A stretch of DNA of 31,178 nt from a virus. The translations under genes and the position numbers were made by a program. How positions within the stretch are numbered: position 1 is the stretch's first letter; every line of letters begins with the position of its first letter. The notes under the pieces were generated by a model, which was not told the DNA's origin, did no database searches, and saw nothing but the letters and a program-made list of their open reading frames with translations. Below, in pieces: positions 12,224 to 28,120 of the stretch. The stretch is from positions 1 through 31,178 of the IMG/VR virus record IMGVR_UViG_3300042868_002228; one strand, given 5' to 3'.

Positions 12224-12383
12224 GGCCAGCGCGGATGCCCACCTTGGCTTGGGCATCAAACACACGCAGGAAGACGGCCCGTTTAAGGCCGTCTTCCCTA
12301 ACCGCTTCGGGGTCTAGGCAGGGGACAAAGAACCCCTGCCCGCGCTCAACCTTTTCCCAAGGGTAGGAGGGGTTCAGCGCCAT
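12180..12383 (-). CDS. Small conserved phage protein, 67 aa (PWE..GQGFFVP type)
   Basis: 67 aa, last gene of the minus-strand block. Its start overlaps the 3' end of the primase-helicase by 38 bp and its 3' end runs 44 bp into the antisense of the giant late gene. The protein reads like a genuine family rather than noise: YPWEKVERGQGFFVPCLD near the N-terminus and GIRAGLMGVWFYRR near the C-terminus. The first part matches a pattern (YPW..M.VGDSFFVP) I know from small phage proteins of unknown function. The Shine-Dalgarno sequence is weak (GAACGAAG), so translation may depend on coupling to the primase-helicase. Three perfect stem-loops lie within or at the edges of the gene. An alternative is that the frame is a chance by-product of a terminator region, but the family resemblance argues against this. 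Confidence 0.72.
   Translation of the reverse strand: MALNPSYPWEKVERGQGFFVPCLDPEAVREDGLKRAVFLRVFDAQAKVGIRAGLMGVWFYRRHLAPA
12234..12257. other. Perfect 8-bp stem-loop in the convergent zone
   Basis: GATGCCCA (12234-12241) pairs with TGGGCATC (12250-12257) around an 8-nt loop, 11 bp after the stop codon of the giant late gene. No T-run follows on either strand. It could act as a 3' end stabiliser for the late mRNA. Confidence 0.5.
12269..12297. terminator. Perfect 11-bp stem-loop, candidate bidirectional terminator
   Basis: GGAAGACGGCC (12269-12279) pairs perfectly with GGCCGTCTTCC (12287-12297) around a 7-nt loop. It sits between the ends of two convergent blocks, where a terminator is expected. 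There is no clear T-run on either side (minus strand continues TGCGTGTGTTTG), so a canonical intrinsic terminator is not proven. It also lies inside the 67-aa minus-strand gene. Confidence 0.5.
12317..12340. other. Perfect 8-bp stem-loop in the convergent zone
   Basis: GGCAGGGG (12317-12324) pairs with CCCCTGCC (12333-12340) around an 8-nt loop, just beyond the stop codon of the primase-helicase in its direction of reading. It is the third strong hairpin within about 110 bp and also falls inside the 67-aa gene, where it encodes part of GQGFFVPC. Confidence 0.5.
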
Positions 12384-15297
12384 CGTCTTCGTTCAGTGGG
12401 CGGCTTATCTTTATGGCAGCTACGCGCATCAAGGGGCCGTTGGTCCGGGCCATCAAGTCCTTGCGGGGGTTGTACGAGACTTCCATGTGTGGGTGCACCT
12501 CCAACTGCTTCTTAAAGTCAGCGTAGCCAAAGCTCATGCTGGAGCAGAACGTCCGCAGCACACGCTCCTCGATGTACAGGTCTGAGCAACCCGGTGTCAG
12601 GCCGTTCTCCACACGCCCCTGCACGGAAGTCCGCGTTGTCGTTTTGTCGATTGCCGCGCCGTCCCCCATCTGCGCCAAGACGCCGCCCGAAGCACCGAAG
12701 TTCACCGTGACGAAGTGGCCGTTGTTCTCGCGGATGAAGGCGTTCAGGATGTCCTCGGCGGTGCGCTTGTTGCTGTTCACGGCCTTACGCATGGCGTCTA
12801 TGCGCCTGCCAAACGCCGCAATGATCTCGGGCATGGGGATGTTGACGATCCCCGCGTTGTTGTCGCTGAACAATATGCCTGCCGCAATCGCTGTGCCCAC
12901 GCCTGCCATCCAGAAGCGCTCGTCGTTGGGGGCCTTGAACTGCAGGTACATCTGCCGTACCACATCAGGAACCATCTCAGCGATCTTGTCGAAGTTGTCC
13001 ACCAAGTACTGCGAAAAGATGTCGCCAGCCACGCCGTAGTTCTGCGCCAAGGACTTGATGATCTCAATCTCATGGGGTTCCCACACCAGCGTGGTGTCCA
13101 TATCGAACTCGATGACCCGGCGAATCTCCCCCTCGGATGCGTGCTTGCGGGTGCCAAGCAGCGTGTCAACCACGTAGGTGTTCGAGGACATCAGCGCGTT
13201 CGACATCCATGTGGAGTTGTTGAGGCGCTCTTTGTTGGTGCCTGCCTCCATGCGCTCCTTACCCCGGCCCTCGGTCATGTCCAGTAGGAACTCGGTGAAC
13301 CACTCAGGAGACACGCGGTTCTTGCTGGTGATCTCGTCGGTGATGAGGGGTAGGCTGCTGAGCATCCCTAGCCGCTGCTGCATGGCTACCGCCGACGTAC
13401 TCTTGCCCGTCCGGTAGTGCACCGGGTGACCCCAAATTGACGCCGCGCCTTCGAGCGCCAGCGACTTGCCTGTGCCTGAGTACGTTGACGCGCAGTGGAA
13501 CGTCATGCCGTAGATGCCGGTGAACTTCATCAGCGGTGCGGCAGCGCCCACCAAGATAATCGCCAACTGGTCGTACAGCTTCTTCTGGATCAGCAGGTTA
13601 ATCACGTTGCGCCAGCCCTGTAGAGTGCCAGTGGGTTGCGTGTTGTTCACGATGTTCTCCAGCCCGACCATAGGTATCTCCACGGGCTTGACCTTGGGTG
13701 CGTAAATCCTGCCTGCATACACGAAGGTGTTGTCCTTCTGCCAGCCGTAGCTCGCAGGTACTTTGACGGGTAGCTTCTCAATGCTCATTTTCTCAACGCT
13801 CGCTCGTATGTAATCAAAAAAGTTCTTGTCGTTGCCAGAGCCAAAGGCGGCAAGGATGTTCTGCGTGGCCAAGCTCTTCATCGTCTCGTCTTTGCTGACG
13901 CAACTGCGCTGTGGCAGCAAGACCGTTTGCGTCCCTTCCGGGCGCAACGCCAGCATGTGCACCACATGCTCCCCGGCGCTGTCGAGGATGTTGATGGGAA
14001 ACAGGTCGTAGCTAAGCAGCAGCGTGAGCTTCTTGGACTCCGTGCCGTCCTCATTCTCCGAGCGCTTCTCAATGTACACGCCACCATTGCGCCCGTACGC
14101 ATAACCAAACGGGGCCTCGGGGCGCAGTATCTTGCGAAACGTGTCCGACCCGGTGACCTCTACTTCCTTTGCCTCTGTAACGACAGCCGTATCACGCCCC
14201 AGCGCCAGCGGGTTTGTAATCTTTCCCCAGTGCTTGCAGTTGGTGCAAACGCCGGGGTTCTCCGAGTCAAACTTGGTGCACGGGTACGGGCCTTTGATCT
14301 CGGCCAGCTTGGCGTACATCCGGTTCGTGTCGTAGGGGTGCAGCCCGCTCAACCACGTAGCTGCACGCTCGCCATCCTCGCACTTCTGTGCGATGCTCAA
14401 CATCCCCCGCCACAGCGGCTCCATCCCGTCGTTTTCGGCGTTCAGGACATAGGACTCTAGCTGCCCGCAGCCATCACCCTTCTTAGTGCGCTTGTAGATG
14501 TTGCCGAACTTGGTGATGCTGTTGGCAAACATCTGCACGCCCGTTGTCGTCGGCGCACTCTTGGGCCGCTGTCCGGGTAGCATGAGCGCGGTGCTTGGCG
14601 TGGGCTTCGCGGCGTGTGCGATAGGCACTAGGTGGCTTTCCAGCAGGGCGCGGATGTCCTCGATGTCGAAGAAGCCCCCGCCGTGCATGAACCGCACCCT
14701 AGTCTCGCCGCGCACGCGCTTGCCACTCTTGACGCCCGTGTTGACCGTTGCTGGTACGCGCAGCACCCGCGCTGCATCGCCCGTCACTGTGGGGTCGATG
14801 CCGAGTTTCTTCTGCACGCACAGGCGCTTGAACGCTTCTGCCACAGGCTTCCACTCCGCGATCTCCACAGCTTCCCGCAGGGGCCAGTAGGCGTGCACGC
14901 CGCCCCCCGAAGCCACCATCCACGGCTCGCCTAGCCCCGCCAGTCCCACCTCGGCGGAGAACTCCATGATGGCCTGCGCGGCAGCGCGTGCCGAGGGGTA
15001 CGCCTTGGGCTTGAACTCCCCGTGCTCATCTGGCAAATCTTTCGGGTGGTTGCAGTCGATGTCGATGGCAATGCACTTGGCCATCTGGGTGTTGGTGGCA
15101 AGGCGCTTGTCAGCGCTGCCAAACGTGCTCAGTCCAAAGTAGACATCAAAGTTCGACTTCTTCCACCGCTCTACCGCTACCTGCGCTTCCTCCAGCGTAT
15201 CCGCATACACATGTTCCTTCTTCGTCAGCTCTGCCACACAGTAACGCCCGTTACCGGGAGGTGGCAAAACCGCCGCTAGAAAATCAAGCGGTTCCAT
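12346..15297 (-). CDS. Primase-helicase fusion: archaeo-eukaryotic-type primase plus P-loop helicase
   Basis: 983 aa. It would synthesise primers and unwind DNA at the phage fork. The N-terminal primase carries AIDID (D79, D81), SGGGVH (S130-H135) and a DAARVLRVPATVN segment (174-186), which fit the three motifs of AEP primases. A zinc-binding cluster follows at C340, C351 and C354 with H356 nearby, of the sort seen beside PriCT-type primase domains. The C-terminal half has a Walker A motif SGTGKS (607-612) and Walker B LPLITDE (E655). Its surroundings resemble phage DUF927-like superfamily 3/AAA helicases. TAGGG precedes the ATG. The gene is followed by the 67-aa gene and preceded by a 52-aa gene. 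Function is clear at domain level; which helicase superfamily applies would need a profile search. Confidence 0.88.
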   Translation of the reverse strand: MEPLDFLAAVLPPPGNGRYCVAELTKKEHVYADTLEEAQVAVERWKKSNFDVYFGLSTFGSADKRLATNTQMAKCIAIDIDCNHPKDLPDEHGEFKPKAYPSARAAAQAIMEFSAEVGLAGLGEPWMVASGGGVHAYWPLREAVEIAEWKPVAEAFKRLCVQKKLGIDPTVTGDAARVLRVPATVNTGVKSGKRVRGETRVRFMHGGGFFDIEDIRALLESHLVPIAHAAKPTPSTALMLPGQRPKSAPTTTGVQMFANSITKFGNIYKRTKKGDGCGQLESYVLNAENDGMEPLWRGMLSIAQKCEDGERAATWLSGLHPYDTNRMYAKLAEIKGPYPCTKFDSENPGVCTNCKHWGKITNPLALGRDTAVVTEAKEVEVTGSDTFRKILRPEAPFGYAYGRNGGVYIEKRSENEDGTESKKLTLLLSYDLFPINILDSAGEHVVHMLALRPEGTQTVLLPQRSCVSKDETMKSLATQNILAAFGSGNDKNFFDYIRASVEKMSIEKLPVKVPASYGWQKDNTFVYAGRIYAPKVKPVEIPMVGLENIVNNTQPTGTLQGWRNVINLLIQKKLYDQLAIILVGAAAPLMKFTGIYGMTFHCASTYSGTGKSLALEGAASIWGHPVHYRTGKSTSAVAMQQRLGMLSSLPLITDEITSKNRVSPEWFTEFLLDMTEGRGKERMEAGTNKERLNNSTWMSNALMSSNTYVVDTLLGTRKHASEGEIRRVIEFDMDTTLVWEPHEIEIIKSLAQNYGVAGDIFSQYLVDNFDKIAEMVPDVVRQMYLQFKAPNDERFWMAGVGTAIAAGILFSDNNAGIVNIPMPEIIAAFGRRIDAMRKAVNSNKRTAEDILNAFIRENNGHFVTVNFGASGGVLAQMGDGAAIDKTTTRTSVQGRVENGLTPGCSDLYIEERVLRTFCSSMSFGYADFKKQLEVHPHMEVSYNPRKDLMARTNGPLMRVAAIKISRPLNEDDGAEPLLPLGKG

Positions 15298-15309: not shown

Positions 15310-15468
15310 TTACTGTGCGTCGGCGTCTACGAAAGCAACGAAGCGCTTGACCAGCTCCGTCACCCATTCAAAAGGCAGCTCCGAGGCGGGGTACAGTGTT
15401 GCGTAGTGCGCCAGCTCCTCGTCGGTAAGAATCCGAGGGTTCAGGGCTTCAAGTTGTACTCTTTGCAT
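15310..15468 (-). CDS. Small acidic protein, 52 aa, unknown function
   Basis: 52 aa, beginning MQRVQLEALNPRILTDEELA and ending FVAFVDADAQ. The chosen ATG has an excellent Shine-Dalgarno sequence (GGAGAAG, 6 nt spacing). An in-frame ATG 12 nt upstream lies where the Shine-Dalgarno sequence would be and is less likely. It overlaps the 3' end of the HTH regulator gene by 28 bp and ends 12 bp before the primase-helicase start, so it belongs to the same operon. The composition (LTDEELAHYATLYP, then a helix rich in Val and Phe) suggests a small helical protein. I recognise no family. Confidence 0.75.
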   Translation of the reverse strand: MQRVQLEALNPRILTDEELAHYATLYPASELPFEWVTELVKRFVAFVDADAQ

Positions 15469-15719
15469 ATTCTTCTCCATGCTTCATCCGCCGTCTTTGA
15501 CGAGGACATTATTGTTAGTAGCAGTTCGACACGGTTCTGGTATGCCACAAAGACATCCCTACCCTCGAACCAGTTGTAGACGGTTTGGCGCGTGACCCCA
15601 AGCGCGATGGCGATCTTCGTCACGGGGAAGTCCAAGTGAATGGCCCAACGCCCAAGACGATTGCCCATCGTCTTGGGGGACGCCGCAACAAGGTCTATGA
15701 TTTTTTGTGAGTAGGCCAT
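15441..15719 (-). CDS. Helix-turn-helix regulator, 92 aa
   Basis: 92 aa with a typical HTH at ~32-52 (FPVTKIAIALGVTRQTVYNW), so it probably binds DNA as a small Cro-like regulator. The tail contains SSSKTADEAWRRICKEYNL, which I have seen in similar phage regulators. There is no Shine-Dalgarno sequence between the ATG and the strong GGGGGC-TTCG-GCCCCC hairpin that ends 8 nt upstream. Its translation may therefore be inefficient or controlled by that hairpin. It lies between the ssDNA-binding-like gene and the 52-aa gene. Targets are unknown; the palindrome at 31.13 kb and the repeated element at 17.2 and 28.1 kb are candidates. Confidence 0.88.
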   Translation of the reverse strand: MAYSQKIIDLVAASPKTMGNRLGRWAIHLDFPVTKIAIALGVTRQTVYNWFEGRDVFVAYQNRVELLLTIMSSSKTADEAWRRICKEYNLKP

Positions 15720-16765: not shown

Positions 16766-17170
16766 TCAGTTGGAAGGCTTGGTTACGCGGATTTCAAAAT
16801 CCGAAAATGCGTTCAGGCCGGGTGGCACTGAACCGGGGTTGTCCGCCAAGAACTGCGCCATGTTGGTCTGGGCAATTCTTTTCTCCAGCAAGTCAACGGC
16901 ATCGTTCGCAACAATGAAGTCTTTGAACGCGTCCCAGTCTTGCGTGGAGTAGCGGGTCTTCTGCACCATCGACACCGTGCCGAAGGTGGTGTTCACAGTC
17001 TTCACGCCGAGCGCTTGCATCTGGTCTTTCATTGCAAACTTCAGCGTGTTCTGCTTCTCTTTCAACTGCTCGACCTTGGTGTCATAGTCCTTGGTCAGCT
17101 CGTCAATTTCGGCCTTTATCTTGCGGTAGATGCGGGCCAGTTTATCCATCGGGATCATGTCTTCAGTCAT
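16766..17170 (-). CDS. Conserved phage coiled-coil protein, 134 aa, unknown function
   Basis: 134 aa. Residues ~8-50 form a charged heptad-rich helix. The rest (GVKTVNTTFGTVSMVQKTRY, DWDAFKDFI, LLEKRIAQTNMAQFL, PPGLN) matches a pattern common in uncultured phages, usually next to the ssDNA-binding-like gene as here. The family has no role I can name; binding to DNA or to the neighbouring protein is a guess. AAAGGAG precedes this ATG at good spacing, which favours it over M7. It is the first gene downstream of the 17.2-kb promoter and operator candidate. Confidence 0.85.
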   Translation of the reverse strand: MTEDMIPMDKLARIYRKIKAEIDELTKDYDTKVEQLKEKQNTLKFAMKDQMQALGVKTVNTTFGTVSMVQKTRYSTQDWDAFKDFIVANDAVDLLEKRIAQTNMAQFLADNPGSVPPGLNAFSDFEIRVTKPSN

Positions 17171-17187: not shown

Positions 17188-17205
17188 GTGTCTATCGTTT
17201 GACAA
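17188..17205. promoter_or_regulatory. Operator-like element, copy 1
   Basis: GTGTC-N8-GACAA. Over 17 bp (17189-17205) it matches 28104-28120 at 14 positions. It lies directly downstream of the promoter candidate and upstream of the 134-aa gene's Shine-Dalgarno sequence, where a repressor would block initiation. Confidence 0.45.
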
Positions 17206-17232
17206 GTGTAACGTGATTTTTAGCGTCTGCAA
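17205..17232 (-). promoter_or_regulatory. Candidate sigma70-type promoter for the 134-aa gene and downstream operon
   Basis: On the minus strand TTGCAG (17232-17227), a 16-bp spacer and TACACT (17210-17205) resemble -35 and -10 boxes (4 of 6 matches each). It sits in one of the two sizeable gaps of the minus-strand gene block. The match is moderate. Confidence 0.35.
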
Positions 17233-17240
17233 CTCCTTTC

Positions 17241-18800
17241 TTAAGAATTTATTTCTGTCTCAAACATCTGGGTCAACGTGAAGTTATCCACAACCTTTGT
17301 GGATAAAGCTGTGAACATCTTCTTCTCTACGGGGCTGCTCTCGATGTGGATAACCGTCACCTTGCCTGCGTCTTGGCCTTTGCGATCCGCCCGTGCAATG
17401 CACTGGATGTACTGCTCGACCGACATCAGCGGCCCATAAAACACTACCGTGTCCGCTGCGGTCAGGGTGATCCCGTGCGCCGAAGCCTGCGGCTGCATGA
17501 CCAGCACGCGAGGGTCTTGCTCGTTCTGAAAGCGTCGGATTGTATCGGCGCGTTTGTTGGGCGTGATGCCGCCGTGGATCAGCTCTACGCGGAAGCCTTT
17601 CTTGGTGAGGTGGTTGTGGATGCTGTCGATGCTGCTGCGGAACATGGCGAAGATCAGCACCTTGCGATCCGTCTCTTCCAAGATTTCCTCCAGCACAGAC
17701 AGCCGGGGGCCAGCATCGAACTCCACCACATCCTTCTCGTCCGTGTACACCGCGCCGCAACTTATCTGCAGCAGCTTGCTCAAGCCCGACGCTGCGTTGA
17801 CCGCTGTGATTGTTTCGCCTGCGGCCTGTATCGACATCCGATCCTTGAGCGTGTTGTAGTACTTGGACTGTTGGGGCGTCATGGGCACCAAACGGGTCGT
17901 GGTGAGCACGGGCGGCAAGTCTAAGCACTGGGCCTTGGTAAAGCGTATCGCGGGCTGTAGCGCCTCGTGGACGATCTGCGGAGCAGTGGCTTTCGCCGCC
18001 CATTTGAACATCGTGACCTTGTGCATCACCTTGTCCCGCCACGCCGTGAAGAACCGGGGTATCCCGTTGGGGTTGACCAGCTTGGCTAGGCCGTACGCGT
18101 CCGCTGGGGACTGCGAAGCAGGCGTACCCGTCATCATCCACAACCGCGTCTCAGGGGTCAGGATGCTCGCCAGCGCTTTGAAGCGCTTGGTCGTAGGGGT
18201 CTTGTAGGCGTTCGCCTCATCAACGATCACCAGATCGAACCGGCCATCGTTCCTGACCTCGTTGGCGATCAGGTTCAGCCCGTCGTAGTTGGCGATGACG
18301 AACTCGAAGTCCTGCTGCACCATCTCGATACGGCGGCTGGCCTGTGCGTGGTGCGCCACAATGGCAGACCTGTGGATGACGCTGCTGCTCAAGTCCCCCA
18401 GCCAAGCGCTCTGCATGATGGACAGCGGGCAGAGCACCAACACGCGCCGGACTTTGCCGATGCTCATCAGGTAGTCTGCGGCCCACAAAGCGCTCAGCGT
18501 CTTGCCTGTACCCGGCTCGCTGAACACGAACGCCTTGCGGTGAATGGTCAGGAAGTCTGCTGTCGCCATCTGGTGCGACATGGGCGTGTACCGCCCCGGC
18601 CAACCGTACCTGCCGTTGATAGGCGAAGGTACATCTTTGACACCTAAGTTTCGTAAGACCTGAACCTCTTCCAACCCCCAGTAAACCAGTATCTCAAACG
18701 TCCCATCTTTTTCAGAGAGGACTTTGTGTTTGGGAATTAAATGGTATTTATCTGGGTTTCTGGTTTTGAAGAGTAGCGCTTTGTTCTCGATGACTTGCAT
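17241..18800 (-). CDS. SNF2-like superfamily 2 helicase
   Basis: 519 aa, a compact DNA-dependent ATPase or helicase of the kind found in phage replication modules. Visible motifs in order: Q77 in TPMSHQMATADFL; Walker A SEPGTGKT with K100; motif II DEAN at 194-197 (a variant of DEAH); motif III TGTP at 224-227; and motif VI QYIQCIARADRKGQ at 463-476 with R470 and R473. The QxxxRxxRxGQ form of motif VI is characteristic of SNF2 family members. GAGAAG precedes the ATG. Its last ~110 bp carry three perfect DnaA boxes and its stop codon falls in the TTCTTAAGAA palindrome, so the 3' end probably has a second role in DNA. It is preceded by the HNH gene with a 15-bp gap. Confidence 0.92.
   Translation of the reverse strand: MQVIENKALLFKTRNPDKYHLIPKHKVLSEKDGTFEILVYWGLEEVQVLRNLGVKDVPSPINGRYGWPGRYTPMSHQMATADFLTIHRKAFVFSEPGTGKTLSALWAADYLMSIGKVRRVLVLCPLSIMQSAWLGDLSSSVIHRSAIVAHHAQASRRIEMVQQDFEFVIANYDGLNLIANEVRNDGRFDLVIVDEANAYKTPTTKRFKALASILTPETRLWMMTGTPASQSPADAYGLAKLVNPNGIPRFFTAWRDKVMHKVTMFKWAAKATAPQIVHEALQPAIRFTKAQCLDLPPVLTTTRLVPMTPQQSKYYNTLKDRMSIQAAGETITAVNAASGLSKLLQISCGAVYTDEKDVVEFDAGPRLSVLEEILEETDRKVLIFAMFRSSIDSIHNHLTKKGFRVELIHGGITPNKRADTIRRFQNEQDPRVLVMQPQASAHGITLTAADTVVFYGPLMSVEQYIQCIARADRKGQDAGKVTVIHIESSPVEKKMFTALSTKVVDNFTLTQMFETEINS
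17284..17353. other. Three perfect DnaA boxes: candidate replication origin
   Basis: TTATCCACA at 17284-17292 and its reverse complement at 17298-17306 form an inverted pair with a 5-bp spacer. A third box (TGTGGATAA) lies at 17345-17353. All equal the strong E. coli consensus. An AT-rich stretch with the palindrome TTCTTAAGAA (17238-17247) lies just to the left. The boxes fall in helicase codons, one using the rare Leu codon TTA. Confidence 0.6.
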
Positions 18801-28102: not shown

Positions 28103-28120
28103 TTGTCTACTGTTGGACAA
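28103..28120. promoter_or_regulatory. Operator-like element, copy 2
   Basis: TTGTC-N8-GACAA is a perfect 5-bp inverted repeat with 8-bp spacer. It matches 14 of 17 positions of 17189-17205 and lies at the -35 side of the promoter candidate. Confidence 0.45.

Follow-up and report, generated by a model that had tools for sequence, protein, structure and literature searches.

The window analysed here is a virus record of 31,178 b, which is probably a piece of a phage genome of about 60 kb (its relatives measure 58–66 kb). Up to 12.2 kb, virion-side genes occupy the plus strand, and the minus strand carries replication genes for a family-A polymerase, an exonuclease, an SNF2-type helicase, a Gam-like protein and a primase/helicase. 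The helicase gene (17,241–18,800, minus strand) encodes an SNF2/DEAD-type phage helicase of 519 amino acids (phrog_62, E = 5e-105; Pfam SNF2-rel_dom and Helicase_C) and bears an array of DnaA boxes near its 3' end. On the same strand, the first gene after the promoter described below (16,766–17,170) encodes a 134-aa protein (phrog_13900, E = 4e-22) whose similarity to Mu Gam is weak (about 1e-4 to 1e-5, under the Pfam cut-off), and the final gene of the block (12,346–15,297) encodes a 983-aa primase/helicase (phrog_8841, E = 5.5e-27; DUF927, E = 1.2e-20). The latter resembles the replicative helicase Cch of SCCmec (NF047345, E = 6.8e-7, below the cut-off of that model), and a search of its sequence against the PDB gave no match. 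Between a 334-aa gene and the primase lies a gene for a 92-aa protein with weak HTH_23/HTH_7 similarity (15,441–15,719, minus strand), possibly a regulator or an initiator. For host assignment, a search of genome contigs returned matches only in MAGs of unrelated phyla.

Exact DnaA boxes inside the helicase coding sequence

The first-pass annotation of this DNA had reported three perfect DnaA boxes, two of them as an inverted pair, and this was confirmed. The exact sequence TTATCCACA occurs at 17,345–17,353 (box A, minus strand; codons 483–486, V-I-H-I), at 17,298–17,306 (middle box, minus strand; codons 499–501, L-S-T) and at 17,284–17,292 (box B, plus strand, reading TGTGGATAA on the coding strand; codons 503–506, V-V-D-N), and there is no further copy in the 31,178 b. 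All three lie within 70 bp and inside the last 37 codons of the helicase, and box B and the middle box form the inverted repeat TTATCCACA-acctt-TGTGGATAA. In dinucleotide shuffles the mean number of boxes per window was 0.08 and 0 of 100 shuffles reached three, indicating that the boxes are not due to chance. The consensus used for the boxes was TTWTNCACA, from which the DnaA specificity of the host may differ.

Two points were absent from the annotation, namely that every box falls within coding sequence and that a fourth, degenerate box belongs to the conserved array. This DnaA-like site, C' (17,310–17,318, minus strand; ATGTTCACA; codons 495–497, M-F-T), agrees with TTATNCACA at 7 of 9 positions with the CACA core intact and is an imperfect inverted partner of box B; it may act as a further DnaA site.

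Conservation of the boxes at the DNA level

The box cluster is missing from most of about 150 relatives and is not a family trait. It is nearly absent from 80 relatives of the broad family with 71–83% helicase identity, and many long family records carry zero copies of TTATCCACA. Those 80 relatives had at first led to the conclusion that the boxes are not conserved, an outcome that on its own would have counted as a refutation under the first-pass annotation; however, the set contained only one member of the window's own clade, and the conclusion was reversed once closer relatives were found. The clade comprises 25 sequences with 82–100% helicase identity, and boxes A and B are present in 25 out of 25. 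Seven members including the window, with helicases at least 92% identical, have all three boxes, and these closest relatives are the only ones with the middle box; in the other eighteen (82–89%) A and B are present and the middle box is missing. Conservation of the boxes as DNA holds within the clade only, not across the family. In the longer clade contigs the exact box occurs almost only at this site, the exceptions being a single additional copy in G027 and another in G032. The clade was gathered by one scan with the box pattern and by two scans with protein queries (Gam-like and primase), which took no account of the boxes; some three-box contigs were first found by the box pattern, and those used were also recovered by the Gam-like or primase queries. 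The close relatives are all uncultured contigs and mostly incomplete.

Synonymous changes per codon were counted on a tree of the 25 sequences, and their expectation was taken from those columns of the gene that have the same amino acid, the columns being treated as exchangeable. No synonymous change was observed in box A versus 7.3 expected (p = 3.5e-4), none in box B versus 9.3 expected (p = 2.2e-3), and jointly none versus 16.6 expected (0 of 20,000 amino-acid-matched resamplings); the codons GTT ATC CAC of box A are invariant in all 25 members. Codons 493–498, which lie over C', showed 1 change versus 14.0 expected, whereas codons 486–492 between the sites and codons 507–519 after them varied normally (12 versus 16.7 and 20 versus 21.4 expected, respectively). 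The joint test of A and B was significant in each of the two sub-clades alone (p = 0.002 and 0.00025) and still held when the contig L236 was added (p = 5e-5), whereas five control clades of the same family showed no constraint of this type (p = 0.25–0.89). Thus, in the comparison of close relatives proposed by the first-pass annotation, the boxes are kept while the surrounding synonymous sites vary.

In sliding windows, no stretch of the helicase gene was more constrained in the clade than codons 493–506. Since similarly constrained windows were also seen where the primase gene begins and within the polymerase gene, the constraint alone is not unique, and what counts is its coincidence with exact boxes that had been named beforehand. 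The constrained segment also includes AAG AAG and GCT, for which a DnaA box offers no explanation. An overlapping gene was considered as well, one antisense frame being open in 25/25 members, and was rejected because it would not leave codons 486–492 and 507–519 unconstrained. Separately, codons ~636–646 of the polymerase gene (20,191–20,160, minus strand; AAGACTTGGGTCTTGGCGCAAATGACTATGGAG) showed 2 synonymous changes versus 16.3 expected in the box-bearing clade; the constraint is weaker across the family, AAGACTTGGGTCTT is found in 62 of 109 relatives, and the stretch is possibly a further DNA element.

Two residues of the helicase are specific to the clade: T497, which supplies TTCACA, is present in all 19 full-length members versus 1 of 123 other relatives, and V504, which supplies GTGGAT, in all 19 versus 0 of 123. 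Because the box codons are synonymously frozen, their neighbours are normal, the control clades are null and T497 and V504 build the motif, we conclude that the boxes are selected as DNA; the array is shown statistically to be a DNA element under selection.

Coding alone can create inverted pairs of TTATCCACA, and a warning is given by the TYPQVMWIN motif of an unrelated phage protein of ~240 aa, which produces inverted perfect pairs at L101, L141 and several dozen loci among L088–L167; moreover, of the 74 relatives that encode VIH but do not belong to the clade, 13 have box A alone. Nevertheless, a mere coincidence of protein-coding constraint is disfavoured and highly improbable for the present array, because the freezing of synonymous sites is confined to the clade with the boxes and because recoding of the last 45 helicase codons, with the protein fixed and phage codon usage (20,000 draws), gave at most two boxes (13 times) and never three. 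Such clade-specific synonymous freezing can tell working DnaA boxes from coding coincidences in phage genomes.

L236, which is 88% identical in helicase DNA to the box-bearing L257, has box A and has lost both box B and the degenerate site, indicating that the array is dispensable; B and C' probably work as a unit. A rival reading is an RNA hairpin in the helicase mRNA, in which UGUUCACAGCUUU pairs with AAGGUUGUGGAUA and which would act in attenuation, processing or translation. Pairing of the degenerate site with B is possible in 25/25 members (−15.5 to −21.9 kcal/mol; only −8.6 in L236), but no covariation was observed, a single pair being changed on both sides, which is no better than in shuffles. 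In addition, each of the two innermost pairs is disrupted in 7 of the 13 distinct sequences, and in L257–L259 a pair is lost through the combined synonymous changes at A498 and K502, which leave the boxes intact. Hairpins of equal stability are found at other places in the helicase gene, and box A, although it lies outside the hairpin, is equally constrained. Because of the missing covariation, the stable hairpins elsewhere and the frozen box A outside, sequence-specific binding fits better, and we consider the hairpin improbable.

The binding protein could in principle be another one, for instance phage-encoded, with a site that matches the DnaA consensus fortuitously. The constraint at the sequence level and the agreement of C' at only 7 of 9 positions would suit such a protein, but two to three copies agree with the DnaA consensus at 9/9 positions, which gives this explanation little probability. 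Sites for host DnaA would most simply account for the DNA-level selection on the boxes, and the exact consensus makes it likely that the array is bound by host DnaA.

The neighbouring promoter and the question of an origin

The first-pass annotation had placed a replication origin here, in which the boxes stand beside an AT-rich stretch with a palindrome, a promoter candidate and an operator-like element. The AT-rich stretch is real, with 65% AT versus 43% for the window; 0.45% of 60-b windows are this AT-rich. The palindrome TTCTTAAGAA (17,238–17,247) is real too but merely represents the helicase stop codon with its surroundings, and rather similar letters surround that codon in relatives that lack the box cluster. 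The promoter candidate (17,205–17,232, minus strand; −35 TTGCAG at 17,232–17,227, 16-nt spacer, −10 TACACT at 17,210–17,205) went unreported by a generic sigma-70 scan but is a conserved element in nearly all relatives. Directly after the −10 box, the operator-like palindrome TGTCAAACGATAGACA (17,189–17,204, minus strand) is likewise real and conserved: the order of promoter, TGTC-N8-GACA palindrome and ribosome site before the Gam-like gene is found in 149 of 153 relatives. The palindrome looks like the operator of a phage regulator, and TGTC-N8-GACA recurs at 28,104–28,119, also by a promoter and ~11 kb from the first copy. Because nearly all relatives share them, with or without boxes, the AT-rich stretch, promoter and operator form one family-wide element that is independent of the boxes.

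The DnaA boxes are linked to this promoter, with the −35 hexamer ~50 bp from box B and 38–39 nt from the stop codon to the operator in 25/25 clade members. The distance between boxes and promoter varies little within the clade, but other clades of similar divergence are not clearly looser in this respect, and it is weak evidence. Of 21 distinct clade promoters, 12 retain the −35 core TTGC, versus 92 of 105 outside the clade (Fisher p = 0.002, without correction for kinship). Its more frequent degradation in the clade would be expected of a promoter that has come to depend on an upstream activator.

In a DnaA-dependent or DnaA-assisted origin, DnaA would bind the array and help to melt the AT-rich stretch, and host DnaB or a phage helicase would be loaded, as in P1 and F. 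The box cluster adjoins the 65% AT stretch, the selected array lies within the replication gene block, and DnaA sites are known in the origins of P1, F and other plasmids (PMC4980987). However, the AT-rich stretch is a promoter common to relatives without the cluster, and the family must mostly initiate otherwise because the cluster is absent from most of its members. The phage also encodes its own Cch/D5-like replicative helicase. Helicases of this type are thought to load themselves and need not be loaded by DnaA.

The change of GC skew that the annotation had proposed to look for was not found: cumulative skew in G022, G032 and G028, contigs that are not closed and have weak skew, showed no turning point at the helicase end and roughly tracked gene orientation. 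In G022 the minimum lies at 18.0 kb, the maximum at 38.6 kb and the boxes at 31.6 kb, and the extremes of G032 and G028 are also off the boxes. Repeats near the helicase end in G022 included nothing iteron-like. With a family-wide promoter and operator as its AT-rich part, no skew turn, a mostly absent cluster and the loss of B and C' in L236, the claim of an origin was not upheld; we regard an origin at this site as possible but rather unlikely, and as the main rival of the reading preferred below. Elsewhere in G022, a three-box relative, a divergent regulatory region near the GC-skew minimum (L369:15690-17650) contains five spaced palindromes of 18–20 bp like GTGGGACAGSTGTCCCAC, a candidate operator or origin cluster.

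Possible role of the array and comparison with known systems

The reading that we prefer, tentatively and at somewhat less than even confidence, is that the array is a DnaA-responsive cis-element controlling the promoter at 17,205–17,232. It would be a clade-specific array for host DnaA at the helicase 3' end, composed of strong box A, degenerate C' and the strong box B in inverted orientation; the third perfect (middle) box would be an addition made in the closest relatives. DnaA bound roughly 80–160 bp upstream of the transcription start would modulate the promoter, a step that we infer together with its sign, and the promoter would feed the gene block from the Gam-like gene to the primase/helicase, so that the replication state of the host would tune the replication genes of the phage. 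The location of the array directly upstream of a conserved promoter is in favour of such control, while the loss of two sites in L236 counts against it, as does the fact that in most DnaA-regulated promoters the boxes are nearer than here.

Alternatively, replicated phage genomes could soak up DnaA and thereby halt initiation on the host chromosome, as datA does. Each phage genome would contribute two to three strong boxes, and datA itself has two consensus boxes and four with one misfit (PMC5835720); but boxes are few per genome and no sequence feature favours titration over regulation, making it very improbable.

A phage that encodes its own polymerase and helicase is usually regarded as independent of host initiation. 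It is conceivable, if doubtful, that a phage clade built a host-DnaA-controlled switch or origin inside its own helicase coding sequence at the cost of two amino-acid replacements, thereby coupling initiation of phage replication to the cell cycle of the host, and that its near relatives replicate without such a device. A recently gained array, missing from relatives whose helicase sequence is largely the same, offers a natural with/without comparison of a phage plug-in to host replication control.

In the literature on DnaA boxes in phage genomes, we found, beyond the work on lambda and plasmids, one Ori-Finder prediction (PMC11512268). Among the viral contigs, L142, L148 and L167 (the last within a 145-kb contig) have at least seven clustered exact DnaA boxes in an oriC-like manner, and these clusters are either genuine origins of phages or host DNA that was binned wrongly.

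Lambda provides a precedent for the action of host DnaA at phage promoters: there, as we propose here, host DnaA sites lie by replication-region promoters (ori/pO/pR) and DnaA is a transcription regulator (PMC3985674); however, lambda has only consensus-like boxes and its own O protein binds the origin, whereas here two to three perfect boxes lie in the helicase coding sequence. The P1 and F plasmid origins likewise place host DnaA boxes close to an AT-rich segment in the replicon of a phage or plasmid (PMC4980987), but at this site neither iterons nor a Rep gene were found, and the phage array is in coding DNA. The E. coli mioC and dnaA promoters, much as proposed for the array, combine strong and weak DnaA boxes at a DnaA-controlled promoter (PMC5835720), but they belong to chromosomal and not phage genes and have another box arrangement. 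Finally, E. coli datA is also a cluster of consensus and degenerate boxes (PMC5835720), but it is a chromosomal titration locus, and titration by the phage array is hypothetical.
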